Source: Hyphomonadaceae bacterium (lineage in GTDB: Bacteria > Pseudomonadota > Alphaproteobacteria > Caulobacterales > Hyphomonadaceae). Taken from it: 35,814 bases of DNA. The notes beneath the pieces are model-generated. The model was not told the origin of the DNA. It did no database searches and saw only the letters and a program-made list of their open reading frames with translations. Positions 5,064-27,379 of this stretch are shown here, one piece after another. The stretch lies in assembly GCA_947474455.1 (NCBI GenBank), contig CANJIL010000030.1, positions 1 through 35,814 of the forward strand, written 5' to 3'. A program made the position numbers and the translations under genes. The first letter of the stretch is position 1. Each line of letters begins with the position of its first letter.

Positions 5064-5371
5064 ACCCGACTCCAAAATCAACTCGCCTTCACGTCTCTCA
5101 TGACCAGTACAGCCGCCGCGAGCGGCCGAAGAACCCAACTGAAGCAAATTGCGATCTGGTTCCCTCTCAGACCTTTTTATAGGTGGTCTGGAATCTGGGA
5201 GCCATTCATTTTTCAGGCGCGTGCAGTGGCCCGCGGTCATCCCCAGTCGTTCGTATCAAGGATATCTAGCTTACCAATACTAACCGAACATCCATGCTTC
5301 GCAGCCAATGGCCTACCTTTACCTAATCTCGCGGGCGAAGCCGCGGCTCGCCGCCGCCCGAGGATCGAAGC
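5064..5371. other. 308-base intergenic region inside the operon
   Basis: No gene found between the kinase stop (5372) and the wzt start. It includes an AT-richer stretch around 5255-5320 that could hold a minus-strand promoter for wzt-wzm and the last glycosyltransferase, but no convincing -35/-10 pair was seen. A short hairpin (CAGACC/GGTCTG, about 5177-5200) is present with no obvious role. Confidence 0.4.
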
Positions 5372-11029: not shown

Positions 11030-13135
11030 CTATTTCTGCCCACGGCCCAGAATGCGGCCGACGCCGCGAAGGGGGGCTGTGACCTTCCACGATGTAGACC
11101 TGCGTAGCGCCTCGATCTCCTCGTGGAGCTTTGCCATATCGCTTTCAGTCAAGTTGGCCCCGCGTTGAGCCGGGCCATCGATCAATATGGCCCCCATCTG
11201 CTGAATAAGTCCCTCTTTTTCAGCTCTCGCCTCGCGCAACCGGTCGTAAGCTGCGTCTCGCTCGGCTGTCCGATCAGCGACCGCAGTCTTCAAGGATTGC
11301 TCGCCTTCCTTATAGCTTCGAATCAGCTGCTCGAATTCTTGCTGGACGGCTTCCAGCTCGACGCCATCACGATGCTGGTGTTCGACGATTACGGCCAACC
11401 GAGCAGCTTCGCGCTCAGCGACGATCAGCCGGTCTGTGAGCGACACACGCTCTGCCGTCTGTTTTTCAGACAGCGCCAGATGCTCGGTCATGTTCCGCTC
11501 GGCGGCGCGTAACGCCGCGCTCACCTGATCCGTGGCGCGGATACTCATGGCGCTGAGCCGTCGCAGATATTCGTCGCTCGCTTTTGTCTGCTGTTCGATC
11601 GCGTTGCGAAGCTGGCCTTCGAGTAGCGCTATACGCTCGTTGCACGCGCTCACGTCCGAAACGTGATCCTGCTCTAAACGGAGGTGACGACCAGCCAGCC
11701 CCGCATAGTCACCCTCCAGTCGCCCATAACGTTCGGCCAACTCAGCGTGATCCTGCTCTAAACGGAGGTGACGACCAGCCAGCCCCACACAGTCACCCTC
11801 CAGTCGCCCATAACGTTCGGCCAACTCAGCGTGATCCTGCTCTAAACGGAGGTGACGACCAGCCAGCCCCACACAGTCACCCTCCAGTCGCCCATAACGT
11901 TCGGCCAACTCAGCGTGGGCCGCATCAAGGGCGGCGTCGCCCGGCATCTTGCTTTCCAAACGGTCTCTCAAATCGACCAACTCGGCAGTGACCTGTTTCA
12001 GCACTATCTCTGCTTGCTCTGCACGCTCGACCTCCGCCCGGAGCCGAACCGCCAGCCCTTCCGCGTTTTCCCGGTGGAGCGCGATTTCTTCGGCCACTCG
12101 CCGCTGCCGGGCGTAAATCTCGGGGAGCACCTGATCGCCAACGGCCGCAGCGTAGTCGCCAAACTCTTCCCGAACCGCATTCAGCGCCGTGACGCCGCTG
12201 CGCGTATCTGCAGTTTTGAGCCCTGCCCAGGCGCGGCGCAGCCAGCTCGCATGCGGCCCTGATATCGTCTCTTCTTTCTTCCAGTGATGACGCAGTCCCC
12301 GGTCGAGGAAGGCATCGACCTCGTCAGCTGCCTCATCGATGGACTTCGGCCATTCAAGCTGCAAGTCGCTTCCGATTACGTCCAGTGAATGACGCCAGTC
12401 GCCCAAGAGGGAATCGAACCCGTGAATCGACCTCGGCAACGAACGGGTTGCCGCTTCCGCGTCCAGCATATGTCGCAACCAGAGGAGAGCCGCGTGGGGC
12501 TGGCCAATTCCGTCACGGGCCGCAAGTGACGCGGCCACTTCGTTCGGATTGCGCATGCAGAGAATATAACGGGGGTCGTAGCCGGCTTCGCGCAACGTCG
12601 CATCGTAGAAGGGGATCATGCGCGATATCCGGGGATCCTTGAGCATCAATAGGTTCTGCCCGGGATATTCTGCTTTTACAGTCGCCTTGATCTCACGCGC
12701 GAAGCTCGCTTTGAGCGCTGGCGACACGCTGTCCAAATCGAGCTGTCGCCAGTCATCCCAACCACTTCCCAACGCCGCCAGGTAACGGTCATTCAGTTCA
12801 ATGATCTTGGCAGGCTCCCAGTGACCCCGCTCATTGGCGTCACCCGCTCCGACTATGTTGAGCGGCAGCCCCGCCCCTAGCCGCGTCAAGCAATACCCCA
12901 GGGCTGAGGTGCCCGACCGATGCATTCCGACCACAATCAATACGACCGGTCGCGATGTCTCGGGACGCCAACGATTTTCCAGAACAGATGAGTTGGGTGT
13001 GTAGAGCGCCGCGCCCTTTAACTGCGCCTTCGGTCTAGGTCTCTGAGAAGTGCGGCTGGACGGCGCCTTCACGGTGCTGCCAGCAGCGCGCACGGAATGG
13101 CGACCAGAACTCTTTCTTCCTTTCTTGGCAGCCAT
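11030..13135 (-). CDS. Sulfotransferase-like P-loop protein with long repetitive coiled coil (701 aa)
   Basis: First gene of the minus-strand operon. The first 45 residues are basic and low-complexity. Residues about 65-290 are a sulfotransferase-family fold: the PAPS 5'-phosphate loop reads VVGMHRSGTSALG (about 69-81), followed by NERGHWEP and LMLKDPRISRMIPFY, family landmarks. From about 345 to 690 the sequence is a heptad-rich coiled coil including three nearly identical 28-residue units (about 407-491). The coil may be a scaffold or a molecular ruler, as in chain-length-control proteins; this is inference. The sulfotransferase domain might sulfate the glycan or could be an inactive P-loop fold. 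GAGG lies six bases upstream of the start. Confidence 0.75.
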   Translation of the reverse strand: MAAKKGRKSSGRHSVRAAGSTVKAPSSRTSQRPRPKAQLKGAALYTPNSSVLENRWRPETSRPVVLIVVGMHRSGTSALGYCLTRLGAGLPLNIVGAGDANERGHWEPAKIIELNDRYLAALGSGWDDWRQLDLDSVSPALKASFAREIKATVKAEYPGQNLLMLKDPRISRMIPFYDATLREAGYDPRYILCMRNPNEVAASLAARDGIGQPHAALLWLRHMLDAEAATRSLPRSIHGFDSLLGDWRHSLDVIGSDLQLEWPKSIDEAADEVDAFLDRGLRHHWKKEETISGPHASWLRRAWAGLKTADTRSGVTALNAVREEFGDYAAAVGDQVLPEIYARQRRVAEEIALHRENAEGLAVRLRAEVERAEQAEIVLKQVTAELVDLRDRLESKMPGDAALDAAHAELAERYGRLEGDCVGLAGRHLRLEQDHAELAERYGRLEGDCVGLAGRHLRLEQDHAELAERYGRLEGDYAGLAGRHLRLEQDHVSDVSACNERIALLEGQLRNAIEQQTKASDEYLRRLSAMSIRATDQVSAALRAAERNMTEHLALSEKQTAERVSLTDRLIVAEREAARLAVIVEHQHRDGVELEAVQQEFEQLIRSYKEGEQSLKTAVADRTAERDAAYDRLREARAEKEGLIQQMGAILIDGPAQRGANLTESDMAKLHEEIEALRRSTSWKVTAPLRGVGRILGRGQK
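11663..11914 (-). repeat. Three tandem 84-bp units within the coiled-coil gene
   Basis: Units at 11663-11746, 11747-11830 and 11831-11914. The last two are identical by eye and the first differs at two bases (CGCATA against CACACA). The unit is 28 codons, so gain or loss keeps frame. Each encodes AELAERYGRLEGD...HLRLEQDH. Confidence 0.95.
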
Positions 13136-13381
13136 ACTCGCCTCTACTCCTGATCCCTAAGAAACGCGCCGAGCAGGCGCCAATGCGCGCGCCGCCCGAT
13201 TTACCTACAATCTTCCCGCCATCATGAATTCAAATACGTGTCTAATCTATTCCCGAACGGAGTGAAAAACGGCTCCTGGGCGACGATTAGCGCTGATTGA
13301 TCGCAGCCTCCTGTGCAGCTATCGCAACCCGGATGGCACCGCGCCACACACAAGGTGCAACAGAACCCGAAGGACTACGGA
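13136..13381. promoter_or_regulatory. Divergent intergenic region between the two polysaccharide operons
   Basis: This 246-base region lies between the start of the long minus operon (13135) and the start of the fusion gene (13382), so promoters for both must be here or overlap it. No -35/-10 pair stands out. The frame upstream of 13382 is open back to 13313 but looks non-coding, and AAGGA sits eight bases before the 13382 ATG. Confidence 0.5.
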
Positions 13382-15751
13382 ATGCGTCAGGCAGTGGTGT
13401 TGGTTGGCGGGCGCGGCACCCGGCTGGGAGAAGCCGCTAGAAACGTTCCAAAACCGTTGCTCCCCATCGCTGGCCAGAAGCGCTTTCTCGACTTCCTGCT
13501 GGAAAACATTGCGCGCCACGGCATCAATGAAATTTTGCTGCTGGCCGGTCACCTTGGCGAAATTGTCGAGGCAACCTACCAGGGCGCAACCTTCGGCGGA
13601 GCGACCGTCCACGTCATCCGCGAACCTTCTCCCGCGGGCACCGCCGGCGCGCTGATCTATGCGCGCGATCGGTTAGACGACGTCTTCCTCATGTCGAACG
13701 GGGACTCCATCCTGGACATGAACTACCTCGCACTCGCCGGGGAGCTGAAACCTGGGACCGATGGCGCTCTGGCATTGCGTCTCGTTGACAATGTAAGCCG
13801 TTTTGCGCACGTCGATCTTCGCGGCCATCGGATTGTCGCCTTCCGCGAGAAAGATGTGTCGGCGGTCGGTCCGGGACTCATCTCCGGCGGCGTTTATGCC
13901 CTGCGCAAAAGCCTGCTGGATCGGATCAAGGTGAACCCTTGCTCCATTGAAATAGATATCTTCCCGCACCTCGCCTCCGAAGGTCGCCTGGCAGGGCTTC
14001 CGGTCGAAGGCTACTTTCTTGATATCGGTCTGCCAGAAACGCTGAGCGAAGGCCGTCGCGACATTGCCGATGCCATGCGCCGTCGCGCCATCTTCCTGGA
14101 CCGCGACGGAACGCTCAACCTGGATGCGGGTTACACTTACAAGGTCGAAGACCTCAAGCTCCTGCCCGGTGCGATTGAGGCGGTTCGCGCCATCAACGAC
14201 GCTGGCGCGCTCGCCCTCGTCGTCACCAACCAGTCAGGCATAGCGCGAGGGAAATATACCGAAGATCATTTGTCGCGCTTCCACGACGCGCTGCAGACCG
14301 AACTATCGAAGAGCGGCGCGCATATCGATGGTTATTACCACTACCCCTTTCATCCTGATGGAACAGTCGAAGGGCTTGTGCATGCGGACCGCCCGGACCG
14401 CAAACCGAATGGAGGCATGCTGCGCCGGGCCATGCTCGAATGGGACGTAGAGCCATCAGGATCAGCTATACTGGGCGACACGGACGCCGACCTTTCTGCA
14501 GGTCGAGCGATAGGCATAGCTGGATTGAAGGTTGCGCCTGGACATCTCATCGATGCAACTCGCAGTGCGCTTTCTCAACTGCCCAGCTTCACGAAGATCG
14601 CTTCAGCTGCGAGCCTCCTTGCTGAACGAGCCGCCAAAGCAAAAGCATGGCTGTTTGATTACGCCCTGCCGCTCTGGTGGGACACCGGCTTCGATTCTGC
14701 GTCGGCTACATTCAACGAACGCATCGACTTGACCGGTAAGCCGGTGCTCCTGCCGCGCAGAATACGCGTCCAGGCGCGGCAGACATTCGTGTACTCGCTC
14801 GCTGGCGGATTGGGCTGGAGCGGACCATGGCGCACCGCAGCAGAGGCTGGCGCAAAAGTCTTGCTCGAAAAGGGCATTCGAGAAGATGGGGGTACGCGCT
14901 TCGCGCTGACACCCTCAGGCGAAGGCATCGCTGATAACAGCAGGGACCTCTACGACACCGCATTCGTAGTGTTTGCACTGGCGAGAGCGGCGATAGCGTT
15001 GCAACAGCCGGACTTCGCCGCAAAGGCAAAGCAGCTGGTTGATTGGACGATCACCAACTGGCTTCATCCTGCAGGCGGCTTCCTTGAAGGCGACCTTGTG
15101 ACCGCGCCGCCGCGCCGCCAGAACCCGCATATGCATATGGTCGAGGCGCTATTGCAGCTGTTCGAAGCTACGGGCGACACTTCCCTGCTGAAGACAGCTG
15201 GCGAGCTCATCAAACTGCTTGAGACGAAATGGATCTCACCGCGCTGGGGAGCTCTGCTCGAATTTTTCGACGACGACTGGACGCCTCGCCAGGGTGATGA
15301 AGGCCGCGTCGCGGAACCCGGCCACCAGTTCGAATGGAGTTGGTTGCTTGAACGGTACGCAAGATTGTCCGAAACGCGTGTCTCGCCAAGCGCCACCCGC
15401 ATCTATCTTCATGGCGAGGTCTATGGCGTCGATCCAAAAACAGGCGTGATAGCGGATGAAACATGGGCGGAAGGCGGCGTGCGAACGCCAACCTCACGCC
15501 TCTGGCCACACACCGAGCGGATTAAGGCCAACATTGTTCGCTTCGAAAACACGCGTAGCATCAGCGCGGCTCACAACTGCGTGCAGGCCTACGACATGCT
15601 GATGACCTATTGCGACGTGCCTGTTCGGGGGCTCTGGCGGGACCGGCGCCAGCCGGACGGTGGCTTCATCAATGAAGCCGCTCCCGCAAGCTCATTCTAC
15701 CACATAGCTCTCGCGCTCTCTGAACTGATCCGTGTAGGTGACAAACTTTAG
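13382..15751 (+). CDS. Three-domain fusion: heptose-1-P guanylyltransferase (HddC-like) + HAD phosphatase (GmhB-like) + AGE isomerase/epimerase
   Basis: A 789-aa fusion. Domain 1 (1-230) is a sugar-1-phosphate nucleotidyltransferase: VLVGGRGTRLGE, VPKPLLPIAG, SNGDSIL. Domain 2 (about 233-395) is a HAD-IIIA phosphatase of the heptose-bisphosphate type: FLDRDGTLN (nucleophile D240, acid/base D242), VVTNQSGIARG, and GDTDADLSAG; the three zinc-binding cysteines of canonical GmhB are absent. Domain 3 (about 422-785) is a complete AGE-type alpha/alpha barrel: RRIRVQARQTFVY, SRDLYDTAFVVFAL, NPHMHMVEALLQLFEATGD, GHQFEWSWLLERYARL, LWPHTERIKAN. Domains 1 and 2 give two steps of GDP-heptose synthesis (phosphatase, guanylyltransferase); HddA at 5372 gives the kinase. 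The AGE domain could be a sugar(-phosphate) isomerase supplying the pathway, or a mannose-6-phosphate isomerase. Confidence 0.88.
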   Translation: MRQAVVLVGGRGTRLGEAARNVPKPLLPIAGQKRFLDFLLENIARHGINEILLLAGHLGEIVEATYQGATFGGATVHVIREPSPAGTAGALIYARDRLDDVFLMSNGDSILDMNYLALAGELKPGTDGALALRLVDNVSRFAHVDLRGHRIVAFREKDVSAVGPGLISGGVYALRKSLLDRIKVNPCSIEIDIFPHLASEGRLAGLPVEGYFLDIGLPETLSEGRRDIADAMRRRAIFLDRDGTLNLDAGYTYKVEDLKLLPGAIEAVRAINDAGALALVVTNQSGIARGKYTEDHLSRFHDALQTELSKSGAHIDGYYHYPFHPDGTVEGLVHADRPDRKPNGGMLRRAMLEWDVEPSGSAILGDTDADLSAGRAIGIAGLKVAPGHLIDATRSALSQLPSFTKIASAASLLAERAAKAKAWLFDYALPLWWDTGFDSASATFNERIDLTGKPVLLPRRIRVQARQTFVYSLAGGLGWSGPWRTAAEAGAKVLLEKGIREDGGTRFALTPSGEGIADNSRDLYDTAFVVFALARAAIALQQPDFAAKAKQLVDWTITNWLHPAGGFLEGDLVTAPPRRQNPHMHMVEALLQLFEATGDTSLLKTAGELIKLLETKWISPRWGALLEFFDDDWTPRQGDEGRVAEPGHQFEWSWLLERYARLSETRVSPSATRIYLHGEVYGVDPKTGVIADETWAEGGVRTPTSRLWPHTERIKANIVRFENTRSISAAHNCVQAYDMLMTYCDVPVRGLWRDRRQPDGGFINEAAPASSFYHIALALSELIRVGDKL

Positions 15752-16248
15752 ATGGTCGGCCGGGACGGCTTCATCACCTCAAGCGCGGCGCGCGAATAGG
15801 CGAGCAATCCATCCGGCAGCGGATCTTCTGCCGCCCACAGCCCGCCGAGATAAAGCCAGACACGTACAGCGCCGGCGGGCGGAATCACCTCTACGCGAGA
15901 ATGCCGTTGCTGCTCAGTCAGCGCCGGCTCAATCGCGCCCCACGACAACACCTTGCCCCCAATATCCATGAACATGGGGCCGACAACATAGACGGCGGGT
16001 TTGCCGTTCTTCGGCGCTTTGATCAGCCGTACGGAATAGTCGATTACGAAAATTTCACCGGGCTGGACGGCCAGCGATTCCGCTGAGATCACCCCACGCA
16101 TGGGGCCAATCGTATACGCACCTCCAGCTAGGCCTGTCGGGGGTGACCCGCCACCGGGACTGAGCCAGCTCGCCTTGGACGAAAAATCGCCGACAATGCT
16201 ATCAGCGGACGGCGACATGTTGGCTGTAGGCGGCTGAGAGTCAGACAT
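15748..16248 (-). CDS. Small soluble protein carrying the locus-specific repeat domain (copy A)
   Basis: This 166-aa protein is almost entirely one domain (about 18-160) that also occurs in the lipoprotein at 20273-20857 and at the C-terminus of the membrane protein at 21009-23189. Shared blocks are PGEIFVIDYSVRLIKAP, NGKPAVYVVGPMFMD, LSWGAIEPALTE, GAVRVWLYLGGLWAAE and PDGLLAYSRAALEV. The pattern of short alternating strands suggests a beta-sandwich, perhaps carbohydrate-binding; I do not recognise a named family. No signal peptide is visible, so it is probably cytoplasmic. The start is uncertain: 16275 is also possible, and the frame is open to 16482. The gene converges on the fusion gene with a 4-base overlap. 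Confidence 0.75.
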   Translation of the reverse strand: MSDSQPPTANMSPSADSIVGDFSSKASWLSPGGGSPPTGLAGGAYTIGPMRGVISAESLAVQPGEIFVIDYSVRLIKAPKNGKPAVYVVGPMFMDIGGKVLSWGAIEPALTEQQRHSRVEVIPPAGAVRVWLYLGGLWAAEDPLPDGLLAYSRAALEVMKPSRPTI

Positions 16249-16442
16249 GTTTTCAGATCCGGCTACCGGTTTCATCGAAAAGCTTCGAACCGACCTCCTC
16301 GCACAACCCAAGCACCGGCATCGAGCGCATTTTTCTATTCTTGGGCGTAAGCAACAATCTGCCCCAGAACCAGATGAAATATGCGGGCGGCATTCCTGGT
16401 CGATCCTCGACCAGTTCCGGTGCGCAGCCTGGCCAGCTTTGC

Positions 16443-16471
16443 TTGACACCTTTCCGGTGTGCGGATAACCC
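16443..16471 (+). promoter_or_regulatory. Candidate sigma-70 promoter for the acyl-AMP ligase operon
   Basis: A perfect TTGACA at 16443-16448 is followed after 17 bases by TAACCC (16466-16471), a weak -10. It lies about 34 bases before the 16505 start. The -35 is convincing, the -10 is not. Confidence 0.4.
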
Positions 16472-16504
16472 AATCTTCTCACGGAAAACTGGCGCTAACC
16501 TGCA

Positions 16505-18142
16505 ATGACGATACTTGATCGGCTTGAAAGCATAGTTGCTAAAGCGCCGGATCAGGTCTTCTGCTACTTCGTGAAGAACGGCGTCGAGACACCGATCACC
16601 TGGAAGCAGCTGTGGGACCGCGCGCAGGTTTACGCGCTGCTGTACGAACATCAAAAAGTTCGCCGCAACAGCGTGATCGTCATCATGCTGCATCATTCAG
16701 ATCACCTCTATTACAGCTTCGTCGGCGCCATGATGTACGGTGCCGTACCGTCATTCATGCCCTACCCCACGCCGAAGCAGGATCTCGGCCTGTTCTGGGA
16801 ACAGCACCACATACTCTTCACGCGGATTGAAGTCGGCGGCCTGCTGACCTATCGCGAGATCGCGGGAAATATCGGCGACATCGGTTCTGCCGCCATGATG
16901 CTGCTCGAGGACATCAATCTCGCTGCTCCCGTTGTCTACGAGCGCGCGCCCGCGCAAGCAGCTGATATCGCCCTCCTCCAGCACAGCTCCGGCACCACGG
17001 GCGTCAAGAAGGGCGTGATGCTGAGCCACGGGGCCATTCTAGCGCAGGCCGATGCATACGCCCCGACGATCGCGCTTGACCGTTCAGCGACCATCGCATC
17101 CTGGCTACCGCTCTATCACGACATGGGACTGATCGCCTGCTTCATCCTACCGATCGTGATTGGCGTTCCGATCGTACACCTCGACCCATTCGAGTGGGTT
17201 GGCGCGCCGCTTGCGCTGCTCGACAAGACGCAGGAGCATCGCGCCACGCACATCTGGTTGCCAAACTTCGCATTCAACCATTTGGCGATGAACCGCCGTG
17301 GCGAGAAAAAGTGGGACCTGTCCTCACTGCGCGTCGTCAGCAACTGTTCCGAACCCTGCAAGATCGAGAGCATGGACAAGTTCAGCCGCACATTTGCCGA
17401 TTGCAGCCTTCGCCCAGACGCCGCTCAGGTCTGCTACGCCATGGCGGAAACCGTCTTCGCGGCGAGTCAGACGAGCGTTGGTCGGCCGCTGAAATCCTAC
17501 ACGCTCAGCCGCTCGCGTCTTGCAGAGCAGATTGTAGCACCGCCAGAGAGCGACGCTGACCGCCAATCGGTTGCATCATGTGGCGAGACCATACCTAGCA
17601 TGCGCGTCAAAGTGGTCGACAATGAGGGAAGCACGCTGAGTGATGGCCTAGTTGGTGAGATCTGCCTCACCGGTCCTAGCCTTTACAGTGGCTACTATCA
17701 CCTGCCCGAGATCACGGCGCAGAAATTCCGCGACGGTTGGCATCATACCGGCGACATGGGATTCGTCCACGACGGCGAAATCTACGTCACGGGCCGCAAG
17801 GACGACCTCCTGATCGTACGCGGCCGCAACTACTACGCCCACGACATCGAAGCCTCAATGAGCGCAACGGACGGCGTTCATCCAGGTCGGGTCGTTTCCT
17901 TCGCAATGCATAACGAGATGATCGGCACGGCCGAAGTGATATGCTTGGCCGAACTACGGCCCGGCGCAGAAGAACCGATCGTACGCCGCGAACTCAGAGC
18001 CAACGTCGAACGGGACGTCGGAGTGGTTGTCGGAAAGATCGTATTCGTGCCATCAGGTTCCTTGATAAAGACCACAAGCGGCAAGATCAGCCGCAAGGAC
18101 AACGCGGCGCGCTATGCTGCCAATCTCGGAGTACGCCACTGA
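16505..18142 (+). CDS. Fatty acyl-AMP ligase-like adenylating enzyme (FAAL/AMP-binding family)
   Basis: A 545-aa ANL-superfamily enzyme. The P-loop is HSSGTTGVKKGVMLSH (about 160-175), then LPLYHDMGLIACFILP, the YAMAE motif, HTGDMGFV, RKDDLLIVRGRNYYAHDIE and the C-terminal catalytic lysine in KTTSGKISR (about K527). LPLYHDMGL and RGRNYYAHDIE are typical of FAALs, which activate a fatty acid as acyl-AMP and load it on an acyl carrier protein rather than CoA. The next gene starts on the stop codon (TGATG, one-base overlap) and begins with an ACP domain, the expected partner. Chain length and true FAAL against CoA-ligase character cannot be settled by eye. No clear ribosome site. Confidence 0.87.
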   Translation: MTILDRLESIVAKAPDQVFCYFVKNGVETPITWKQLWDRAQVYALLYEHQKVRRNSVIVIMLHHSDHLYYSFVGAMMYGAVPSFMPYPTPKQDLGLFWEQHHILFTRIEVGGLLTYREIAGNIGDIGSAAMMLLEDINLAAPVVYERAPAQAADIALLQHSSGTTGVKKGVMLSHGAILAQADAYAPTIALDRSATIASWLPLYHDMGLIACFILPIVIGVPIVHLDPFEWVGAPLALLDKTQEHRATHIWLPNFAFNHLAMNRRGEKKWDLSSLRVVSNCSEPCKIESMDKFSRTFADCSLRPDAAQVCYAMAETVFAASQTSVGRPLKSYTLSRSRLAEQIVAPPESDADRQSVASCGETIPSMRVKVVDNEGSTLSDGLVGEICLTGPSLYSGYYHLPEITAQKFRDGWHHTGDMGFVHDGEIYVTGRKDDLLIVRGRNYYAHDIEASMSATDGVHPGRVVSFAMHNEMIGTAEVICLAELRPGAEEPIVRRELRANVERDVGVVVGKIVFVPSGSLIKTTSGKISRKDNAARYAANLGVRH

Positions 18143-19257
18143 TGGCCGGTGCAGACGACAACTTTGCGCGCGTTGCCAACGTGGTCGGCCGCATCTTCGG
18201 CGTGCCGCCAAGCGAAATCACGCCATCGACCGCTGCGGCTGATATCGACGGTTGGGATTCCGTTTCGCACGCTATGTTGACTCTTGAGCTGGAAGACGAG
18301 TTCAAGATTCGGCTGGATTTCGAACAGACAGCCAGCTTCAAAGATGTCGGCGCCCTCGCTGAGCATATTCGCGGCAAGGCCGAGGAGCAGGAAAACGTTC
18401 AAGCACGCGCGGCAAAGCGCGATGGCAAACCGTTGATGATATTGTTTGGCAACTGCCAGGCCGAGGTGCTCGCCGGGCACTTCAAGACTTATCCGCCGCT
18501 CGGCAAGAATTTCGATATCCGCTACATCCCGAATTACTTCAAGGAGGGCGTGACTAACGACACGATGCCCTCACCCGAGGAGTTGGCATCCTGCGCCTTT
18601 CTCCTCGAACAGCGCACGCCACATGTTCGCTTTCCGGAACCTGAGCGCGTTAGCAACGCAAAGGTCGTGACCTATGCCTCGCTCGACTTCAACATCCTTT
18701 GGCCGCTGCACGCCCAAGAGCCGCGCAACGCGCCGCGCCCGGATCTCCCTCACGGACCCAATGGCTACGGCGACCGCATCATAAACAAGATCGTCAAGGA
18801 AGGCCTTTCAGGTGACGCGGGCTGGAAAGCCTATGTCGAGCAGTCCGAAGCAGCGCTCTCCAATCTGCCGCGCCTGCTCGAAATTGAACAACAGCGCTGG
18901 GCTCTCATGGAGCGCGACATTTCAGTCGGGATGTCGGATTTTGTCTTCGGCGCCTTCCGCAAGAAGCGGATCTACAGCACATACAACCATCCCATTATCG
19001 GCATTATTTCCGAGATGGCCTCGCGCATTCTTATCTCCGCGGGCCTCGACGGCGGCGCAACGCCGGGAGATGTTCGCGCCCTGATGAGCGCGCTGTTCCG
19101 CAGCCCGTTTGGCGAGGAGTTGCAGGCCCCCGTCCACCCTCGCATCGCGCGCGAGCTTGAACTTGCCTGGTGGACACCGGACCTTACTTACAACTGGCAT
19201 GGCCACCGTTTCACGTATGAGCAGTTCATTCGCCGCCAGATCGACTGGACCGTATGA
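18142..19257 (+). CDS. Acyl carrier protein fused to WcbI-type polysaccharide acyltransferase
   Basis: This 371-aa protein has two parts. Residues 1-80 are an acyl carrier protein with the phosphopantetheine site at Ser40 (DGWDSVSHAML) and a hydrophobic EDEFKIRLDFE helix. Residues about 97-370 match the WcbI family by the ILFGNCQAEVLAGHF opening (GNCQ at 103-106), the later YASLDFNILWP and the C-terminal WHGHRFTYEQFIRRQ. WcbI is encoded in the B. pseudomallei capsule cluster, where it is thought to acetylate the polymer with acetyl-CoA. Here the ACP is built in and the acyl-AMP ligase is translationally coupled, so an ACP-bound acyl group is the likely donor. The start at 18142 is favoured over the open frame upstream, which overlaps the ligase. 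Confidence 0.87.
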   Translation: MAGADDNFARVANVVGRIFGVPPSEITPSTAAADIDGWDSVSHAMLTLELEDEFKIRLDFEQTASFKDVGALAEHIRGKAEEQENVQARAAKRDGKPLMILFGNCQAEVLAGHFKTYPPLGKNFDIRYIPNYFKEGVTNDTMPSPEELASCAFLLEQRTPHVRFPEPERVSNAKVVTYASLDFNILWPLHAQEPRNAPRPDLPHGPNGYGDRIINKIVKEGLSGDAGWKAYVEQSEAALSNLPRLLEIEQQRWALMERDISVGMSDFVFGAFRKKRIYSTYNHPIIGIISEMASRILISAGLDGGATPGDVRALMSALFRSPFGEELQAPVHPRIARELELAWWTPDLTYNWHGHRFTYEQFIRRQIDWTV

Positions 19258-19342
19258 TTACCCATCTGAGCGCTGTCGGCGCCTGAAGCCCGGTGAAGGG
19301 CATCCATTTTTGTATTGTCGAAGCCGATGTTAGGTAAGCCGC

Positions 19343-20164
19343 ATGACAAGCACGCCTTCACCATGGCTGGGCAATATGAACTCTCTCGCGGAGTGCCTGG
19401 CGGCTGGGTTGGTTCCGCCCCAGAGGTCCCCCACCCCGACTCAGGACGTGTTTCTCGCGGGCTATTGCAGTGTTTGTCAGCGACAGACGCGTTTCCGCCT
19501 TGGCCGCGATCACTACCATGAACGGTGGGGCTATTTCTTCCGCGAAGCGCTGAGCTGCGATCACTGCACCCTCAACGCCCGCATGCGCGCAGCGCTTCAA
19601 TATATGCTCGGTCTCTGCCTCAAGCCGGCCGCTCATATCTATCTGACTGAGCAGGTAACACCGATGTACCGCTACCTCAGGCAGCGTTTTCCCAATGTCG
19701 TTGGCAGTGAGTATCTGCCGGGCGAACCGCTCGGCTCGGTGAAGGATGGCGTGCGCTGCGAAGACCTGCAGAACCTGACGTTTGCCGACGGATCATTCGA
19801 CGCTGTCATAAGCCTCGATGTGCTCGAACACATCCCGGACTATAAGGCCGGCTTGCGTCAGATGGCGCGCGTGCTGAAACCGGGCGGCACTTTGGTGATG
19901 ACTTGCCCGTTCCTCATGCAGACGCAGAAGACATTCAATCAAGCACGCCTCAACAGCAACGGTGAGATCGAGCACCTCATCCCCAAACCCGAATATCACG
20001 GAAACCCGCTTGGCCCCCCATCGCTGAGCTTCAACACATTCGGCTGGGACCTCCTCGAGGATATGCGCCTCGCCGGGTTCAAGACAGCGCAGCTAATACC
20101 ATATCAAAACGTCGACCTGGGCTATGTAGGCGGACCCTTCCCGCTTCTGGTAGGCACAGTGTGA
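19343..20164 (+). CDS. SAM-dependent methyltransferase with N-terminal zinc-ribbon-like Cys pairs
   Basis: A 273-aa class I methyltransferase. The central and C-terminal landmarks are clear: FADGSFDAVISLDVLEHIPDY (motifs II/III) and RVLKPGGTLVMTCPF. Motif I is unusual: the place of the Gly-rich loop is held by AHIYLTEQVTPMYRYLRQRFP. Two cysteine pairs (C42/C45 and C72/C75) precede it and could bind zinc. It probably methylates a sugar or the chain end of the glycan, but the acceptor is not shown by the sequence. AGGTAA precedes the start; Met12 (19376) is an alternative. Confidence 0.82.
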   Translation: MTSTPSPWLGNMNSLAECLAAGLVPPQRSPTPTQDVFLAGYCSVCQRQTRFRLGRDHYHERWGYFFREALSCDHCTLNARMRAALQYMLGLCLKPAAHIYLTEQVTPMYRYLRQRFPNVVGSEYLPGEPLGSVKDGVRCEDLQNLTFADGSFDAVISLDVLEHIPDYKAGLRQMARVLKPGGTLVMTCPFLMQTQKTFNQARLNSNGEIEHLIPKPEYHGNPLGPPSLSFNTFGWDLLEDMRLAGFKTAQLIPYQNVDLGYVGGPFPLLVGTV

Positions 20165-20206
20165 CGTCATCGCTGCTTAATGCTCAACTACATATGAATT
20201 CGCTGC

Positions 20207-20235
20207 TTGTTGCTCGTTTTGGTTTGAACTAGAAG
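20207..20235 (+). promoter_or_regulatory. Possible promoter for the lipoprotein gene
   Basis: TTGTTG (20207-20212), a 17-base spacer and TAGAAG (20230-20235) lie 37 bases before the 20273 start. Nearby is a short direct repeat (CGCTGCTTnnTGCTC at about 20171 and 20201). Both boxes are imperfect. Confidence 0.28.
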
Positions 20236-20272
20236 CCTGTGCAATCGCTCGACCTCTGTGGATTTTTCGATC

Positions 20273-20857
20273 ATGGCGTATCGAATCGGAACTGCTGTTG
20301 TCTTAGTGGTTTCTTTTGCTGCTTTGCTGACCGCGGGTTGCGAACAAGCGAAAGCCCCTGAAGATGTAGCCGCGATTGCTGAAACGCCCGCGGCCCCCGC
20401 AGCTCCAGTCCCGCCTGCGGAGATTGCTGGCGACTTCACATCGCTGGACACATGGCAATCGTACGGCGGCGGACCCGCGGAAGCAGGTCTTGTTGAAGGT
20501 GCCTATGCCTTTGCTCCGAATGTAGGCGCGATGTCGCGTACGTCGCTAACTGCGAAGCCCGGCGACAAGTTCACTGTCGACTACACCGTCAAGCTGGTCA
20601 CTGCGCCAGGCAACGGCAAGGCGGCGCAATATGTCGTAGGCCCGATGTTTCTCGACGCGCAGGGCGTGGTGCTCGCCTGGGGCAGCGTCGAGACCGCACT
20701 GACCGAGCCGACACGCACCGCTCATGTTGAAGCCGAGGCTCCCGCGGGCGCCTTCCGTGCGCACCTCTACATCGCAGGCATGTGGGCAGCTGAAGCGCCC
20801 GCGCCGGACGGCAAGGTGGCCTACACCGCCGCCAAACTGAACACGGTGACAAAATAA
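20273..20857 (+). CDS. Lipoprotein carrying the locus-specific repeat domain (copy B)
   Basis: A 194-aa protein with a clear lipoprotein signal: a short basic start (MAYRIG), a hydrophobic segment and the lipobox LTAGC, so Cys at about residue 24 is lipidated. A Pro/Ala-rich linker (about 35-55) leads to the same domain found at 15748-16248 and in the neighbouring membrane protein: PGDKFTVDYTVKLVTAP, NGKAAQYVVGPMFLD, LAWGSVETALTE, FRAHLYIAGMWAAEAP, PDGKVAY. The protein sits in the periplasm or on the outer membrane, where this domain could bind the exported glycan; that is inference. The frame is open to Met at 20258, but 20273 gives a better signal peptide. Family not recognised. Confidence 0.8.
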   Translation: MAYRIGTAVVLVVSFAALLTAGCEQAKAPEDVAAIAETPAAPAAPVPPAEIAGDFTSLDTWQSYGGGPAEAGLVEGAYAFAPNVGAMSRTSLTAKPGDKFTVDYTVKLVTAPGNGKAAQYVVGPMFLDAQGVVLAWGSVETALTEPTRTAHVEAEAPAGAFRAHLYIAGMWAAEAPAPDGKVAYTAAKLNTVTK

Positions 20858-21008
20858 CTGATCCGGCCTGTCGCTCGCTGCGCTTATGCGGCTTTGCCGT
20901 GTAGGGCGGGCGTTGCACTTGTGATCGCGTGACATGTACCATGCAGCCGGTCGCCGCGCTCTGGCAGACTCCACGGGTGGGACGGGACGTGTCACGAGGC
21001 CAGCTCAA

Positions 21009-23189
21009 ATGATTGGGAAGCTTTCGCAGGTTTCCGAAACTTCGCTGGCCTTGCTGGCGGGAGCGGCCTTCGTTGTTCTTGCCTGTATCGGTGTGATCAA
21101 CTCCTACAGTCCGGTTCCGTTCTGGGACATGTGGGATGGCGTGGTCTTCTTTGAGAACCGCGTGAGCGATGGCGAACTTGGCGCATTCGTGGCGCAACAC
21201 GTCAATCATCGCACCGTCGTTTCAAACGCCCTGTTTCACCTCGACCAGACCGTGTTTGGCGGCGATCACCGTATGCTGTTCGTCTCAAGCCTCGTATTCT
21301 TGGGCGGTATTGTCGGCTTGATCGCGTGGCTGTGCCGGCTGGTCATGCCCGGGCGCGAGAATGCGAAGCTTGTTCTCATCGTCGCCGGCCTCAGCTGTGT
21401 GTTGTCCTTCTCGTGGATCCAGAAGGAAAATCTCGCCTGGGCTTTTCAGAACCAGATGTACGCGGTGCAGTTCTTCCCACTGCTCGCGACGATCGCGCTG
21501 GTCAAAGCGGGTCAAGCGCAGGACGCCGCAAGAAATCTCTGGTTTGCGCTTGCAGTAGTTGCCGCGTTCATTTCGCCATACACGATGATGAGCGGCTTGT
21601 TCATCCTGCCGCTGCTTGTCGGCACCGCGCTTTTTTTCCGCCTGGGATGGATCCGCACCAGCATTCTTGGCGTGGTCTCGGCCGTAGCGGCCAGCCTGTT
21701 CTTCATCGGCTACAAAAATCCGGATATCCAGAAGGACTACGCTGGGTCCTTCTTCAACCACATCCCTGAGTTCATCCAGTTCGCGTTTAAGCTGATCGGT
21801 GGGCCCGCGTCGTACTTCCCATGGGTCGGCAGCCCTGACCTGGCGCTGGCGGCGGGCGCACTGATGGTGATCACCGCGCTTGCCATGATCGTATGGCTTT
21901 GCTGGCGCGCCGAGACGCGCTGGGTGGGCGTCGTATTTCTTGTTTTGCTGGGTTACGAAGCGATGACGGCGGCCGGCATAGCAGTCGGCCGTTCAGGGCT
22001 TGGCATGGATCAGTCCCTGCAGAGCCGCTACATGACCACTTCGCTGGTAACCTGGTCGATCTACTTCGCCCTTGTCATCTATTTCTTCCGCGGCTTCTTT
22101 TTGCGTCCCTTGGCGACTCTCATTCCACTGGCGTCGCTGCTCCTGCTGACGCCCGCGCAGACATCTGCACTGGATGTTTCGGTCGAGCCTCGCATGGAAA
22201 GACTTGGGGCAGCGCTAGCGCTTGAACTCGGCGTAAAGGACCAGGCGCAGATCGGACAGATCTGGCCATTCTTCGACTCGATCGGCGTCCTGACGGAAGG
22301 GGCAAAGATGAAGAACATCTCGATCTTCGGGGCCGATATGCTGAAGGATGCAGCGCAGAAGCTGGGCGCTTCCGTGACCTTGCCTGGGCCCACTGAATGC
22401 GAAGGGCGCGTCTATACGACGGATGCAGTCAAGGACGATGTGCGTTTCCAGCGCCTCGCCGGCATCGTCACCTCCAAGTCAGGAATGAAACTGCCCGACG
22501 CAATGACCATCGCCGACGCCAAAGGCAAAGCCGTCGGCTACGCACTCACCTCGCGCTCGGTCACCGGTGTCGGTCTGTCGCAGGCCGGCGCCGTCCAGTT
22601 CATTGGATACGTCCAGAACGATCGCGAACCGGGTGCGCTTCACTTCATTGAGCGTGCTGGCGCATGCAGTTTTGCAAGCGATGCAGGCGCGGCCGCACAA
22701 GGGATAGCATCGGGCATCGAAGCCAACTTTGATGTCCCGGCCACTTGGGAAGGTGCGGGCGGCGGCGCTTATCCAACAGGCCTCCAGCAGGCCAGTTACA
22801 ACCTCAAGGCAATGGCAGGCGCACGTTCGCGCGAATGGCTGGCCGTCCGCCCTGGCGACAAGCTCGCGGTCGACTATTCGGTTCGTCTGGTCAGTGCGCC
22901 AACCAATGGCAAACCGCCCCGCTACGTGGTCGGCGCGATGTTCCTCGACGAAAAGAGCAATGTCCTCGCCTGGGGGAGCGTCGAGCCTCCGCTCGCGGAA
23001 GCGTCGCGCTCGGCTCATATTGAGGCGACCGCACCAGAAGGCGCTGTGCGGGTGCATCTGTATCTCGGCGGCATGTGGAGTCCGGAAGCACCGCCGCCCG
23101 ATGGAGAGCTTGCCTATTTCCGTGCTGCTCTTTCGGTCGTGTCCCGAGTGCCGGCGCCCGAGACGCCCCCCGCGTCAGCGCCGCAATAG
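21009..23189 (+). CDS. Polytopic GT-C-like membrane protein with C-terminal locus-specific domain (copy C)
   Basis: A 726-aa protein. Residues about 10-390 contain roughly ten hydrophobic segments. The first large loop (PVPFWDMWDGVVFFENRVSDGE...QHVNHRTVVSNALFHLD) has the acidic FWDxWD and an H-x-R motif as in bacterial membrane proteins of the GT-C type, which use lipid-phosphate sugars on the periplasmic face. Residues about 390-560 are a soluble region of unknown type. Residues about 570-720 are the domain shared with 15748-16248 and 20273-20857 (PGDKLAVDYSVRLVSAP, RYVVGAMFLD, LAWGSVEPPLAE, VRVHLYLGGMWSPEAP). GAGG lies upstream of the 21009 ATG; the frame is open to 20934. Function as a glycosyltransferase is inferred. 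Confidence 0.75.
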   Translation: MIGKLSQVSETSLALLAGAAFVVLACIGVINSYSPVPFWDMWDGVVFFENRVSDGELGAFVAQHVNHRTVVSNALFHLDQTVFGGDHRMLFVSSLVFLGGIVGLIAWLCRLVMPGRENAKLVLIVAGLSCVLSFSWIQKENLAWAFQNQMYAVQFFPLLATIALVKAGQAQDAARNLWFALAVVAAFISPYTMMSGLFILPLLVGTALFFRLGWIRTSILGVVSAVAASLFFIGYKNPDIQKDYAGSFFNHIPEFIQFAFKLIGGPASYFPWVGSPDLALAAGALMVITALAMIVWLCWRAETRWVGVVFLVLLGYEAMTAAGIAVGRSGLGMDQSLQSRYMTTSLVTWSIYFALVIYFFRGFFLRPLATLIPLASLLLLTPAQTSALDVSVEPRMERLGAALALELGVKDQAQIGQIWPFFDSIGVLTEGAKMKNISIFGADMLKDAAQKLGASVTLPGPTECEGRVYTTDAVKDDVRFQRLAGIVTSKSGMKLPDAMTIADAKGKAVGYALTSRSVTGVGLSQAGAVQFIGYVQNDREPGALHFIERAGACSFASDAGAAAQGIASGIEANFDVPATWEGAGGGAYPTGLQQASYNLKAMAGARSREWLAVRPGDKLAVDYSVRLVSAPTNGKPPRYVVGAMFLDEKSNVLAWGSVEPPLAEASRSAHIEATAPEGAVRVHLYLGGMWSPEAPPPDGELAYFRAALSVVSRVPAPETPPASAPQ

Positions 23190-23194
23190 CACGG

Positions 23195-24664
23195 CTAGAC
23201 TAGCAGCGCCGCAGCCACCAGCCCTGCGAGTGCGAAACCCAGTCCGAAGCTGACACGGTCCCGCACGGCAAACGATACAGGATCATCGTCAAGCTGACCG
23301 CGATGCGCCAACAGCCAGATTCGTGCAGTCCAGATCGCGATGATAACCGGCATGCCGCCAAGGAAGACAGGCGACTTGTAGATGCTTATCGAATAAGCCT
23401 CATCGACTAGGTAGAGGACCAGAATGAGAATAGCCGCGCTGGCAGATCCAATGCCCAACCCGAGCGTCAGCGGCGCATCTTCAGGATAGTAGCCCCTGCC
23501 CCGGATCGCGACCTTCGGCGTCGCGTCCGGCGCAATGAGTTCGACATGGCGCTTGGCCAGCGATAGCGAGAAGAAAAAGAACATCGAGAAGGTGAGCAGC
23601 CACAACGAGTACTCGGCGCCGATTGCAACGGTGCCCATCACCAGCCGCAGCGTATACAGCGAAGCGAGAATGAAGACGTCGAGCAGAGGCGTGATCTTGA
23701 ATTTCAGCGAATAGCTGAGCGTAAGGACGAGATACCCCGACAGGGCTAGCGCCAGTATTGGCGCAAGAAAATAAGCTGCAATCAGCCCCCCCGCCACAAG
23801 AAGCGGGGCGACGATCAATCCTCCCCATAGCGGCACGGCGCCCGTGGCCAGCGGCCGGTTGCGCTTTGTCCTGTGACGCCGGTCAGCGCCAAGGTCAGAC
23901 ATGTCATTGATAAGATAGGTGCCGGACGCTGTGACTCCGAGAATGAGGAAGCAAAGCAGAGCGTTGATGACCGCCGCCGGATCGGAATAGCTGTGACTGA
24001 GGATGAGCGGCACGAAGATCAGAAAGTTCTTCGTCCACTGGTGCATACGCAGCGCTTTCAGCCACACGCGCACGCCCGCGGCTGGGCGCGAGAAGTCCGC
24101 TTCCAGCCAGTCACCTCGCTCAGCAAGCTTTCGCCGCAAGCCGGGATTGGTGCCGGCATAGATGCCTCCGGTCGCTCCCGACCATACCTTCATGTCTGGG
24201 CGGCTGTCGCCGGCATAGACGAAACTGTCACCGAACTGTTCGCGAATGGTGGCGAGCTTTCGGCGTCCCTTCAGGTTGACGCCGCCTCCGCTGCCGATTG
24301 CGCGGTCAAAGATCCCGAAGTGACCCGCCACGCGGTCGACAACGCCTTGATCGGCTGCAGACACGAGGTGGATCGGCCGGCCGCTGTCGCGCTCCGTACG
24401 CAAATAATCGATCAGCTTCTCGTTCGCAGGAATGGCCTCGTAGTCGACGTCGATGTTCTGGAATACCCACGTCTTGAAACGCGGACGCGAAAGCATGGCT
24501 GTCGCAAGACGCATCGTCATGGAAAACGGCTTCTGAAAGAACCCCGCCGTGATGCCCTCTACCAGGGTATCAGTGCGCAGGATGGTTTGATCCATATCGA
24601 CGATCAGCGGCGGCTTTTCGCCCGCACGGCCAAAATCCTTACCGTCGGGATTATCTACCTTCAT
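23195..24664 (-). CDS. HAD phosphatase fused to UbiA-family prenyltransferase (polyprenyl-P phosphoribosyltransferase-like)
   Basis: A 489-aa fusion. Residues 18-190 are a HAD phosphatase: nucleophile D23 in VDMDQTILRTDTL, LVSAADQG, AGDSRPDMKVW. Residues about 200-489 are a UbiA-type transferase with about eight membrane spans; the Mg/pyrophosphate motif is NDMSDLGADRRHRTKRNRP (N253, D254, D257, D261). In mycobacteria the UbiA enzyme Rv3806c makes polyprenyl-phosphoryl-5-phosphoribose and a separate enzyme removes the 5-phosphate; the HAD part here would suit that dephosphorylation. Its ATG overlaps the stop of the GtrA gene by four bases. Last gene of the minus operon; it converges on the GT-C gene with five bases between. 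The substrate is inferred. Confidence 0.85.
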   Translation of the reverse strand: MKVDNPDGKDFGRAGEKPPLIVDMDQTILRTDTLVEGITAGFFQKPFSMTMRLATAMLSRPRFKTWVFQNIDVDYEAIPANEKLIDYLRTERDSGRPIHLVSAADQGVVDRVAGHFGIFDRAIGSGGGVNLKGRRKLATIREQFGDSFVYAGDSRPDMKVWSGATGGIYAGTNPGLRRKLAERGDWLEADFSRPAAGVRVWLKALRMHQWTKNFLIFVPLILSHSYSDPAAVINALLCFLILGVTASGTYLINDMSDLGADRRHRTKRNRPLATGAVPLWGGLIVAPLLVAGGLIAAYFLAPILALALSGYLVLTLSYSLKFKITPLLDVFILASLYTLRLVMGTVAIGAEYSLWLLTFSMFFFFSLSLAKRHVELIAPDATPKVAIRGRGYYPEDAPLTLGLGIGSASAAILILVLYLVDEAYSISIYKSPVFLGGMPVIIAIWTARIWLLAHRGQLDDDPVSFAVRDRVSFGLGFALAGLVAAALLV

Positions 24665-25131
24665 TTCCGCGCCTTGGTTTCGGGAGCCTTGACCGCATCC
24701 GCCTTGTCGCCCTTCCGGTCGAATGTGAAATATAGATGCCCAAAATAACTAGTCGCGACGGGCGATGCGACACCGATGGCATGCGCCACCTCTTCAGGGT
24801 GCCAGTTCCAATTGATGGCAGGCAGGCCCCAGCGTTGCATAACCACGGTCACTGCCCACACCTGCACCAAAGAAATCAAATTTATGAGTACAAAGCGCAA
24901 AGCTTCTTCATGAACCGCGCGCCCGCTCTTATCGAAGACAAAAGCCTTTGTGAGCGCATAGGCCATCGTCATGCCGATCAGATAAGCGACGATGATAGCG
25001 ACTGTGAGCGGCAACCCGGCCGCTGAAAGGCCGATCCTCGCCCCCCAGTTAACGAGAGCCGCGGAGGCGCCGACCAGCACAAAAGCTGAAAACTGGCGGC
25101 CTGAGGCCTTGCGCTTGGCGGTACCGGTCAT
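24661..25131 (-). CDS. GtrA-family membrane protein
   Basis: A 156-aa protein with four hydrophobic segments and the GtrA pattern: RQFSAFVLVGASAALVNWGARI at the first helix, AYLIGMTMAYALTKAFVFDKS in the middle, and VATSYFGHLYFTF at the fourth. GtrA proteins are thought to flip polyprenyl-phosphate sugars across the membrane. Overlaps of four bases join it to the FAD oxidoreductase (25128) and the HAD-UbiA gene (24664). The start at 25131 is set by the ATGA overlap; the frame runs open to 25323 but upstream is the shadow of the oxidoreductase gene. Confidence 0.85.
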   Translation of the reverse strand: MTGTAKRKASGRQFSAFVLVGASAALVNWGARIGLSAAGLPLTVAIIVAYLIGMTMAYALTKAFVFDKSGRAVHEEALRFVLINLISLVQVWAVTVVMQRWGLPAINWNWHPEEVAHAIGVASPVATSYFGHLYFTFDRKGDKADAVKAPETKARK

Positions 25132-26420
25132 GGCGGCCCCAGGTCTTCGACCATTAGCTGGGCAAACCGGATGCTCTCCGAAACGCCGCGGTCCTCGGGA
25201 TAATAGAACGCCGTATCGGCAATCTGCAGCCCCGCGATCGGCGTCTGAACCGGCGGGAGGATTTTCATGAATTCCGGCTCGTAGACCGGCTGGGCATGGC
25301 GCAGCCGGCTGACCTTTACACAAAGCCTGTCATCTTCATTGAGCTCCGGGTTGATCGCCTTCAGGCAGGCCCAGCTCTCCTCGATGAACAGGTCGTCCGG
25401 CGCACCGAACTTCGGATGAGTTTGCGGCATGTAGTAGGGCACGTACACAATCGTGTCCTTCATCGGTCGCAGATTGGAAATCTCGATGATCCCCGGGATC
25501 TGGAAGCGTGCGTCACTGATGTTGACCCAGAAGTTCTTTGACACCTGCCGCTTCAGCTTCCAGATCAGACAGACCACGGCCACGTTGCGAATGCGGGCAT
25601 AACGCTCCTTTAGCTCGCCGTACTCGTCCGGGAGAATGCCGGGCACGTATGGCGTCGGAATGGTGGAGATCACCTTCTCCGCCTCAATACGCAAACCTCC
25701 CGCCGTGCGTACAGCAGCGACCGCGCCATCCTTCACCTCGATCTTCTCGGCAGACGTCTTGTAGTGTATCCGCCCGCCCCTCGCTATGATCGCCTGAGCC
25801 AGCGCGTTCATCAGCGTCTCGGAACCGCCCTCGATATAGCCGAGGCGTTCCTCGAACAGCGATTTGCGCGAATTGCCGATGCGCTTGATTCGTTGCCACA
25901 CCCAAGCTGCTGAAACATGCTTGGCAAGCTCATAGAACTTGAAATGCATCAGCGGCTTCCACAGCCGCTCGTAAGTTCGCTGCCCCAGCCAGGCGACATA
26001 CCATTGCTCGGCGTTGATCTTGTCGAGCTCACGCCAGTCTTTCTTTTTGGTCGACATGAACGCCTGCAGTCCGTAGCGCAGCTTCCCGATAGGACCGAGC
26101 TTCGAGAATGTGAGCAGCGAAATGGGATCGCCCCAGGGATAGAGCCTGCCATCGAAGTAAAAGCCCATCTTCGTCGCGACCCATTTCATGGCATCGGGCA
26201 TGCCGAGCTCTTGGAGGAGAGCGACCGTGTGCGTGTCGCTGAGCGCGCAAAAATGGTAGAAGCGTTCGATCGACAATCCATCGAAATCGAAATGCGCCGC
26301 CATGCCGCCCGGCCTGTCGCCAGCTTCAAGCACGTCGACCTCGTAGCCGCGCTTCACCGCCGCATAGGCAGCTGCCAGCCCCATGGGCCCGGCGCCAAGA
26401 ACGAGCAGCTTCTTCGGCAT
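25128..26420 (-). CDS. FAD-dependent oxidoreductase (amine oxidase/phytoene desaturase superfamily)
   Basis: A 430-aa flavoprotein. The N-terminus is a dinucleotide-binding fold, LVLGAGPMGLAAAYAAVKRGYEVDVLEAGDRPGG, with the acidic residue for FAD ribose at the end of the second strand. Further landmarks are GYIEGGSETLMNALAQAI, an internal substrate region and the C-terminal GLQIADTAFYYPEDRGVSESI where the second FAD contact sits. In this operon (SDR, FAD enzyme, GtrA, HAD-UbiA) it could oxidise a polyprenyl-phosphate sugar in an oxidation/reduction epimerisation, as DprE1 does, though DprE1 belongs to a different FAD family. The substrate is not shown by the sequence. AGGGAG lies just upstream, next to a 9-bp hairpin. 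Confidence 0.8.
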   Translation of the reverse strand: MPKKLLVLGAGPMGLAAAYAAVKRGYEVDVLEAGDRPGGMAAHFDFDGLSIERFYHFCALSDTHTVALLQELGMPDAMKWVATKMGFYFDGRLYPWGDPISLLTFSKLGPIGKLRYGLQAFMSTKKKDWRELDKINAEQWYVAWLGQRTYERLWKPLMHFKFYELAKHVSAAWVWQRIKRIGNSRKSLFEERLGYIEGGSETLMNALAQAIIARGGRIHYKTSAEKIEVKDGAVAAVRTAGGLRIEAEKVISTIPTPYVPGILPDEYGELKERYARIRNVAVVCLIWKLKRQVSKNFWVNISDARFQIPGIIEISNLRPMKDTIVYVPYYMPQTHPKFGAPDDLFIEESWACLKAINPELNEDDRLCVKVSRLRHAQPVYEPEFMKILPPVQTPIAGLQIADTAFYYPEDRGVSESIRFAQLMVEDLGPP

Positions 26421-26429
26421 GCGCTCCCT

Positions 26430-26450
26430 AGCTGGCCTAAAAGGCCAGCT
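26430..26450 (-). promoter_or_regulatory. Perfect 9-bp hairpin between the SDR and FAD oxidoreductase genes
   Basis: AGCTGGCCT and AGGCCAGCT pair around a three-base loop. The hairpin contains the SDR stop codon (26437-26439) and ends a few bases from the AGGGAG ribosome site of the next gene. There is no U-tract, so it may limit translation of the second gene or mark an mRNA processing point. Confidence 0.45.
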
Positions 26451-27363: not shown

Positions 27364-27379
27364 GCACACCCACCCCGAA

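Follow-up and report, generated by a model that had tools for sequence, protein, structure and literature searches.

Why would one small domain be placed on a free, cytosolic-looking protein, a lipoprotein and a multispanning membrane protein within a single polysaccharide locus? The question is raised by contig CANJIL010000030.1 of a Hyphomonadaceae bacterium (GCA_947474455.1), which was analysed in full (35,814 b; hereafter 'the window') and belongs to a 3.29-Mb draft genome. A previous sequence-only reading of this DNA had proposed that three of its genes share a domain of no recognised family, and had offered a glycan-binding beta-sandwich as one explanation. We consider it reasonably probable that the domain is a small jelly-roll of the carbohydrate-binding module (CBM) type that recognises the locus's own polysaccharide, with three duplicated copies sent to three places.

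Three copies on three carriers

The copies, here termed c1, c2 and c3, are encoded as follows:

15748..16248, minus strand: c1, a free-standing copy of 166 residues, domain at 15766-16206; predicted cytosolic, with neither a signal peptide nor a membrane segment seen
20273..20857, plus strand: c2, a lipoprotein copy with signal peptide, lipobox-like LTAG-C, Ala/Pro-rich linker and domain at 20411-20854
21009..23189, plus strand: glycosyltransferase-C (GT-C)-like multispanning membrane protein whose C-terminus (about residues 567-714) is c3, domain at 22707-23150

A six-frame tblastn search of the window with the c2 domain returned two strong matches besides c2: c3 at 22743-23141 on the plus strand (55% identity across 133 residues, E 2e-45) and c1 at 16185-15772 on the minus strand (51% across 138 residues, E 2e-41). 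One domain thus occurs three times; the next match in rank (E 0.004, plus strand, 16154-16375) contains a stop and lies partly opposite c1. The three-copy alignment spans 149 columns, 56 of them invariant, and the motifs quoted in the sequence-only reading are present in the copies. Over this alignment, the other two copies are 50 and 51% identical to c2, and c1 and c3 are 52% identical to each other. Searching the organism's own genome with the domain gave four matches at E ≤ 10: c1, c2, c3 and a fourth with E 0.2. The window copies form one clade in the tree (support 98/90), the remaining branches being long and their order unsure, and they probably arose by duplication within this lineage.

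The coding strand of c1, left unstated before, is the minus strand: 15748-16248 is not an open frame on the plus strand, and the 166-residue frame runs from ATG 16248 within an open frame of 244 residues, a start that assumes the end coordinate of the sequence-only reading. Its 3' end overlaps the end of the 13313-15751 gene by four bases. The best 19-residue hydrophobicity mean (windows starting in the first 70 residues) is 0.97 for c1 versus 2.22 for c2; as c1 lacks a hydrophobic segment, its description as soluble fits. In c2, a signal peptide and a lipobox-like motif are present. Reading the letters of this motif places a Glu directly after the Cys, and Glu following the lipobox Cys directs a lipoprotein to the outer membrane (the +2 rule), where c2 is probably located. 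A simple hydrophobicity plot of the 726-residue c3 carrier shows nine peaks, and the domain comes after the membrane part.

Fold, family and genomic setting of the domain

A structure model of c2, built from 4 sequences, predicted a jelly-roll beta-sandwich across the whole domain, as in carbohydrate-binding modules. Fold comparison, which rests on a VIA-align search of this model with 50 rows, placed sugar-binding modules as the largest group (16 rows); none of the 50 was titled Wzt, a judgement by titles that leaves room for a Wzt-like fold. The domain is 9-15% identical to the solved structures of CBM16, CBM4 and CBM22. A Trp at position W90 is shared by all nine members compared and might serve as an aromatic platform for a ligand.

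The sequence-only reading had recognised no named family, and this is borne out in Pfam, NCBIfam, PHROGs and the sequences of the PDB. For the c1 and c2 proteins, Pfam returned no family at E ≤ 10; across eight domain members its one match was weak (Fn3_arc, E 0.19), and neither CBM_4_9 (PF02018) nor Wzt_C came up. NCBIfam gave no named family for it, the best PHROGs value was E 0.099, and the best PDB sequence match had E 0.31, with EmbC absent from the matches. PF02018 itself gave 0 matches in 61 genomes of the family. Phage records yielded 47 matches at E ≤ 10, none significant (best E 0.7; the annotated rows shown were baseplate wedge proteins), plasmids no domain match, and viral contigs 65 pattern stretches of which 0 were confirmed. 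No match to a well-known non-glycan family, a result that would have spoken against the glycan-binding proposal, came up by profile or structure.

Outside the window, the family is rare: we report six loci in five genomes, with strong members in G007 (two copies), G008 and G013 (same genus), G033 (same family) and G088 (same order). With the window's own genome included, matches were returned for 5/61 relatives, 6/105 family genomes, and at least 6/398 order, 5/385 class and 2/398 phylum genomes, where the draws overlap and the last three counts are lower bounds, up to 10 first-look candidates having been scored per genome. The own genome was the sole strong carrier in the class and phylum draws; the other matches there were weak (E 0.002-0.01) and were rejected once their frames had been read. 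The matches in G256 (order draw) and G006 (family draw) were weak too. A pattern scan of GTDB contigs returned 56 stretches, of which one was confirmed, on the contig of a metagenome-assembled genome. Several candidates were rejected: L018 is an enzyme-like frame whose match contains a stop, L025 and L026 had no look of this domain when their frames were read, and L023 and L024 were weak, the latter discarded on reading a frame that we take to be deaminase-like. Also excluded was L028 (G006:C191; profile E 9.5e-4), a long repetitive phage-tail-like protein with a CBM-like stretch that may share the fold.

Free copies without a hydrophobic segment comprise c1, two in G007 and one in G088; c2 represents the lipoprotein architecture; and c3 and the G033 copy sit at the C-terminus of multispanning proteins. 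The G033 carrier matches GtrII (PF14264, 1.2e-18), and a grouping of the two carriers as one enzyme family was unsupported, BLAST being significant in the C-terminal domain only. In G013, one membrane segment is followed by Lys/Arg-rich sequence and then the domain, which by the positive-inside rule (a positive flank marks the cytosolic side) would lie in the cytosol. A similar segment precedes the G008 domain in a different frame (L034 18568-19233 and 19006-19202); this split may reflect a draft error or a broken gene, so anchoring is uncertain.

All six loci lie among sugar-polymer genes: glycosyltransferase genes or, in G008, candidate genes that we take to be for dTDP-rhamnose. Homologues mostly outside polysaccharide loci, which would have told against the proposal, were not what we found. 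The nearest GT2 match is 1.0 to 15.1 kb away (within 10 kb for 5/6), whereas 20 kb around GT2 matches make up 11.8-16.5% of the six genomes. The proposal of a glycan-binding beta-sandwich is partly supported, at the level of predicted fold and gene context, with glycan binding itself a presumed property, the fold being found in non-sugar-binding proteins as well. Two window frames (34094-35688), 0.4 kb past genes presumably for dTDP-rhamnose, are 76% and 70% identical to G008 frames (L035 8734-10673) about 6 kb from the rhamnose genes of that genome, which suggests that a variable sugar island sits in a neighbourhood common to both genomes.

The c3 carrier and its candidate pentofuranose cassette

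Next to the c3 carrier lie four genes:

23195..24664, minus strand: HAD-UbiA fusion, polyprenyl-phosphate phosphoribosyltransferase-like (PF01040, 8.6e-18; NCBIfam PRK08238, 542.7 bits, cut-off 351)
24661..25323, minus strand: candidate GtrA-type flippase (PF04138, 3e-17); the listed frame overlaps the next gene, so its start is uncertain
25128..26420, minus strand: FAD/NAD(P) oxidoreductase (Amino_oxidase), 49-54% identical to its counterpart in two alphaproteobacterial cassettes
26437..27369, minus strand: NAD-dependent epimerase, 52-56% identical to its counterpart in the same two cassettes

The HAD part of the fusion matched at E 8.9e-5, below Pfam's cut-off. Homologues of the c3 carrier were returned by tblastn from 2/72,556 plasmid records, both alphaproteobacterial. 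The CP049031 genes run UbiA, FAD oxidoreductase, SDR, epimerase, FAD/NAD(P) oxidoreductase, GtrA and then the GT-C homologue, and the Rhizobium locus has the same order. The window's UbiA-HAD, GtrA, oxidoreductase and epimerase genes adjoin its GT-C gene and are 34-56% identical to the two cassettes; homologues of the remaining pair (FAD oxidoreductase and SDR) occur together on contig C60 of the same genome, and would be DprE1/DprE2-like by the pathway outlined in PMC11127046. As described there by Kelly et al. (2024), three-component systems add pentofuranoses in the periplasm. D-arabinofuranose is a fair guess for the cassette's sugar, because DprE1/E2 homologues occur where arabinofuranose is found (PMC11127046).

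The residues D40, H64, H67, R340 and Y341 are invariant in the window protein and its two homologues (3/3), and resemble the D, H and RY residues reported as tested in ORF12 (PMC11127046), a likeness drawn from the published description. Pfam gave no glycosyltransferase match for the carrier (two matches at E ≤ 10, GtrII not among them), and a profile of the three proteins found no solved GT-C structure (one match, a lipase, E 0.72). A 578-residue homologue aligns to carrier residues 8-553 and ends before the domain; the Rhizobium rhododendri plasmid homologue (L045 7914-10055) has another C-terminal extension, also without the domain. Since two same-cassette homologues lack it, the domain looks like a module added to a GT-C-like enzyme, whose C-terminal end may be exchanged between lineages. 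G008 also has a HAD-UbiA gene (L049 7440-9415) with an adjoining frame that is GtrA-like by its letters; a homologue of the window GT-C was not found in the fetched stretches of that genome.

GT-C enzymes with a C-terminal CBM are known, namely EmbC (PMC3044687) and GT136 (PMC11127046). Like the c3 carrier, the GT136 enzyme ORF12 of Citrobacter youngae is described as a GT-C enzyme with a beta-rich C-terminal module, in a system that, as predicted for the window, involves a polyprenyl-phospho-pentofuranose, a UbiA-type synthase and a HAD phosphatase part (PMC11127046). The flippase differs, MATE in the ORF12 system versus the GtrA candidate here, where the MATE scan covered part of the window genes, and the window domain additionally occurs as a cytosolic protein and a lipoprotein. 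The C-terminal domain of EmbC has two subdomains and a calcium site (PMC3044687), whereas the window domain had no sequence match to it in the PDB.

A proposed recognition of one polymer at several steps, and the rival explanations

A CBM-type jelly-roll devoted to the polymer of its own locus, the explanation we prefer, would give each copy a step. Free in the cytosol, c1 would bind the chain, growing or finished, ahead of its export; c3 would keep the exported polymer in place in the periplasm as its enzyme adds pentofuranose from a polyprenyl-phosphate donor; and c2 would keep or guide the polymer at a membrane, probably the outer one. The three placements suggest one polymer recognised at several steps of its making. 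Several points weigh against this explanation. The five c2 models varied in mean predicted local distance difference test score (pLDDT) from 64.7 to 88.3, and the fold rows also include meprin (7), insecticidal proteins (7), phage proteins (7) and cyclases (2); a jelly-roll, found in phage fibres too, is by itself no proof of sugar binding. No sequence family linking the domain to a CBM was found in Pfam or among PDB sequences. The copies may be alike because they duplicated recently and not because they share a ligand, and the CBM of GT136 was reported as not needed for activity, either in vivo or in vitro, under the conditions used (PMC11127046).

The cytosolic copy brings the export genes into the argument:

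3344..4171, minus strand: presumably a Wzm-like polysaccharide ABC transporter membrane subunit; homologues lie beside Wzt-like genes in G008, G033, G088 and Rhizobium
4206..5240, minus strand: ABC ATPase that we take to be Wzt-like (344 residues, with the ABC core at 139-269; Wzt_C gave no match)
11030..13135, minus strand: sulfotransferase-like N-terminus (weak) and coiled-coil-like part, a candidate chain terminator or ruler

Wzt_C (PF14524), typically a strand-swapped dimer, is a cytosolic jelly-roll that recognises the chain before export, as proposed for c1, and a Wzt carbohydrate-binding domain worked in trans in vivo (PMC9445017); the window domain differs in having no Pfam Wzt_C match and not being fused to Wzt. 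The window's Wzt-like protein ends soon after its ATPase core, the sole Wzt_C match of the genome lies on another contig (C44), and short Wzt-like proteins occur near the domain in G033 (274 residues, ~4 kb), G008 (287 residues, ~19 kb) and G088 (258 residues, ~11 kb). Wzt_C was absent by profile from the window and G033 proteins, those of G008 and G088 being judged by length only. According to PMC11231755, chain terminators carry a coiled-coil ruler and pair with exporters whose ATPase bears a CBM. In the 11030-13135 protein, the sulfotransferase-like match is under the cut-off (E 0.0098), and LRLEQDH recurs every 28 residues (offsets 428, 456 and 484), possibly a length-variable ruler. G088 encodes one 1885-residue protein with sulfotransferase-like (weak, below cut-off), coiled-coil-like and glycosyltransferase parts. 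Coiled-coil runs of at least 160 residues occur at 6/7 domain loci (window 178, G033 211, G007 312 and 459, G013 845, G088 494; G008 has 132) and at 0/8 comparison stretches (largest 124; L031, L035, L044, L045, L047, L048, L049 and L050), as scored by a crude composition rule, without statistics, in which the 160-residue threshold was chosen once the values were known; the controls are not independent, four of them flanking domain loci, and L047 spans only 3.3 kb. Both G007 copies adjoin very long coiled-coil-like frames with a hydrophobic N-terminus (L032 9079-12210, L033 1-3824).

These observations bear on a special form of the preferred explanation, in which c1 would be the exporter's missing carbohydrate-binding domain as a separate protein, reading the terminator-capped chain end and passing finished chains to the Wzt ATPase. 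The short Wzt-like proteins, the coiled-coil runs with the limits just given, the fused G088 protein and the action of the Wzt domain in trans speak for it, and yet it strikes us as possible rather than likely. Exporters needing no such domain exist, as in K. pneumoniae O1/O2 (PMC11231755); the G033 copy sits on a membrane protein; and the fetched parts of G007 and G013 hold distant ABC proteins only and no close Wzm/Wzt, within short contigs in G007 and a contig that starts at the domain gene in G013. A different view casts the domain as a protein-protein adaptor that binds no sugar and brings the proteins of synthesis, modification and export into one complex. It would make use of the meprin and phage baseplate proteins among the fold relatives, and a module shared between compartments could act as a docking unit for all of them. 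We regard it as rather unlikely: sugar-binding modules form the largest fold group, a single partner protein is hard to imagine for copies on both sides of the membrane, and the periplasmic fusion is where other GT-C enzymes carry a CBM. That the domain is itself an enzyme, for example a polymer-modifying one, is very improbable, since the invariant columns of nine members (G51, G77, W90, P111 and G123, with Trp in 9/9 at W90) include no conserved acid-base set; in its favour stand the two cyclase rows.

Returning to the CBM-type explanation, its new element is the detached cytosolic form of the domain, found in the window and in G088 at loci with a short Wzt exporter and a long coiled-coil protein; among the open-licence papers listed, no title or abstract opening describes a stand-alone exporter-associated CBM. 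That c1 is a detached cytosolic reader is a reasonable but tentative proposal. Its fullest version is speculative: c1 would be a free 'cap reader' split from the exporter, coupling a coiled-coil terminator to an ABC exporter without a binding domain, while its sister copies accompany the polymer across the periplasm, on the pentofuranosyltransferase, and on to the lipoprotein, such that one duplicated module tracks one polymer across the envelope. CBMs were known on GT-C enzymes and, separately, on Wzt exporters, and the discoverers of the GT136 module called its physiological role unclear (PMC11127046). The present family is found on two GT-C-type proteins whose membrane parts cannot be aligned, on a lipoprotein and on free or membrane-anchored cytosolic-looking proteins, a natural set for asking what the module does at each stage and whether a detached reader can serve an exporter. 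The family, which has no Pfam entry, could also guide the annotation of polysaccharide loci.

Other window genes deserve mention. The 16505-19257 region encodes an AMP-binding ligase and, after it, an acyl-carrier domain in fusion with WcbI (PF18588, 5.3e-19); this module might transfer acyl groups to the polysaccharide. The 812-residue product of 13313-15751 joins nucleotidyltransferase, HAD phosphatase and GlcNAc 2-epimerase-like domains; together with a GHMP kinase (5372-6367), it suggests a heptose-type sugar. A transposase-like frame, which we take to be of IS3 type, lies at the contig start (31-981).
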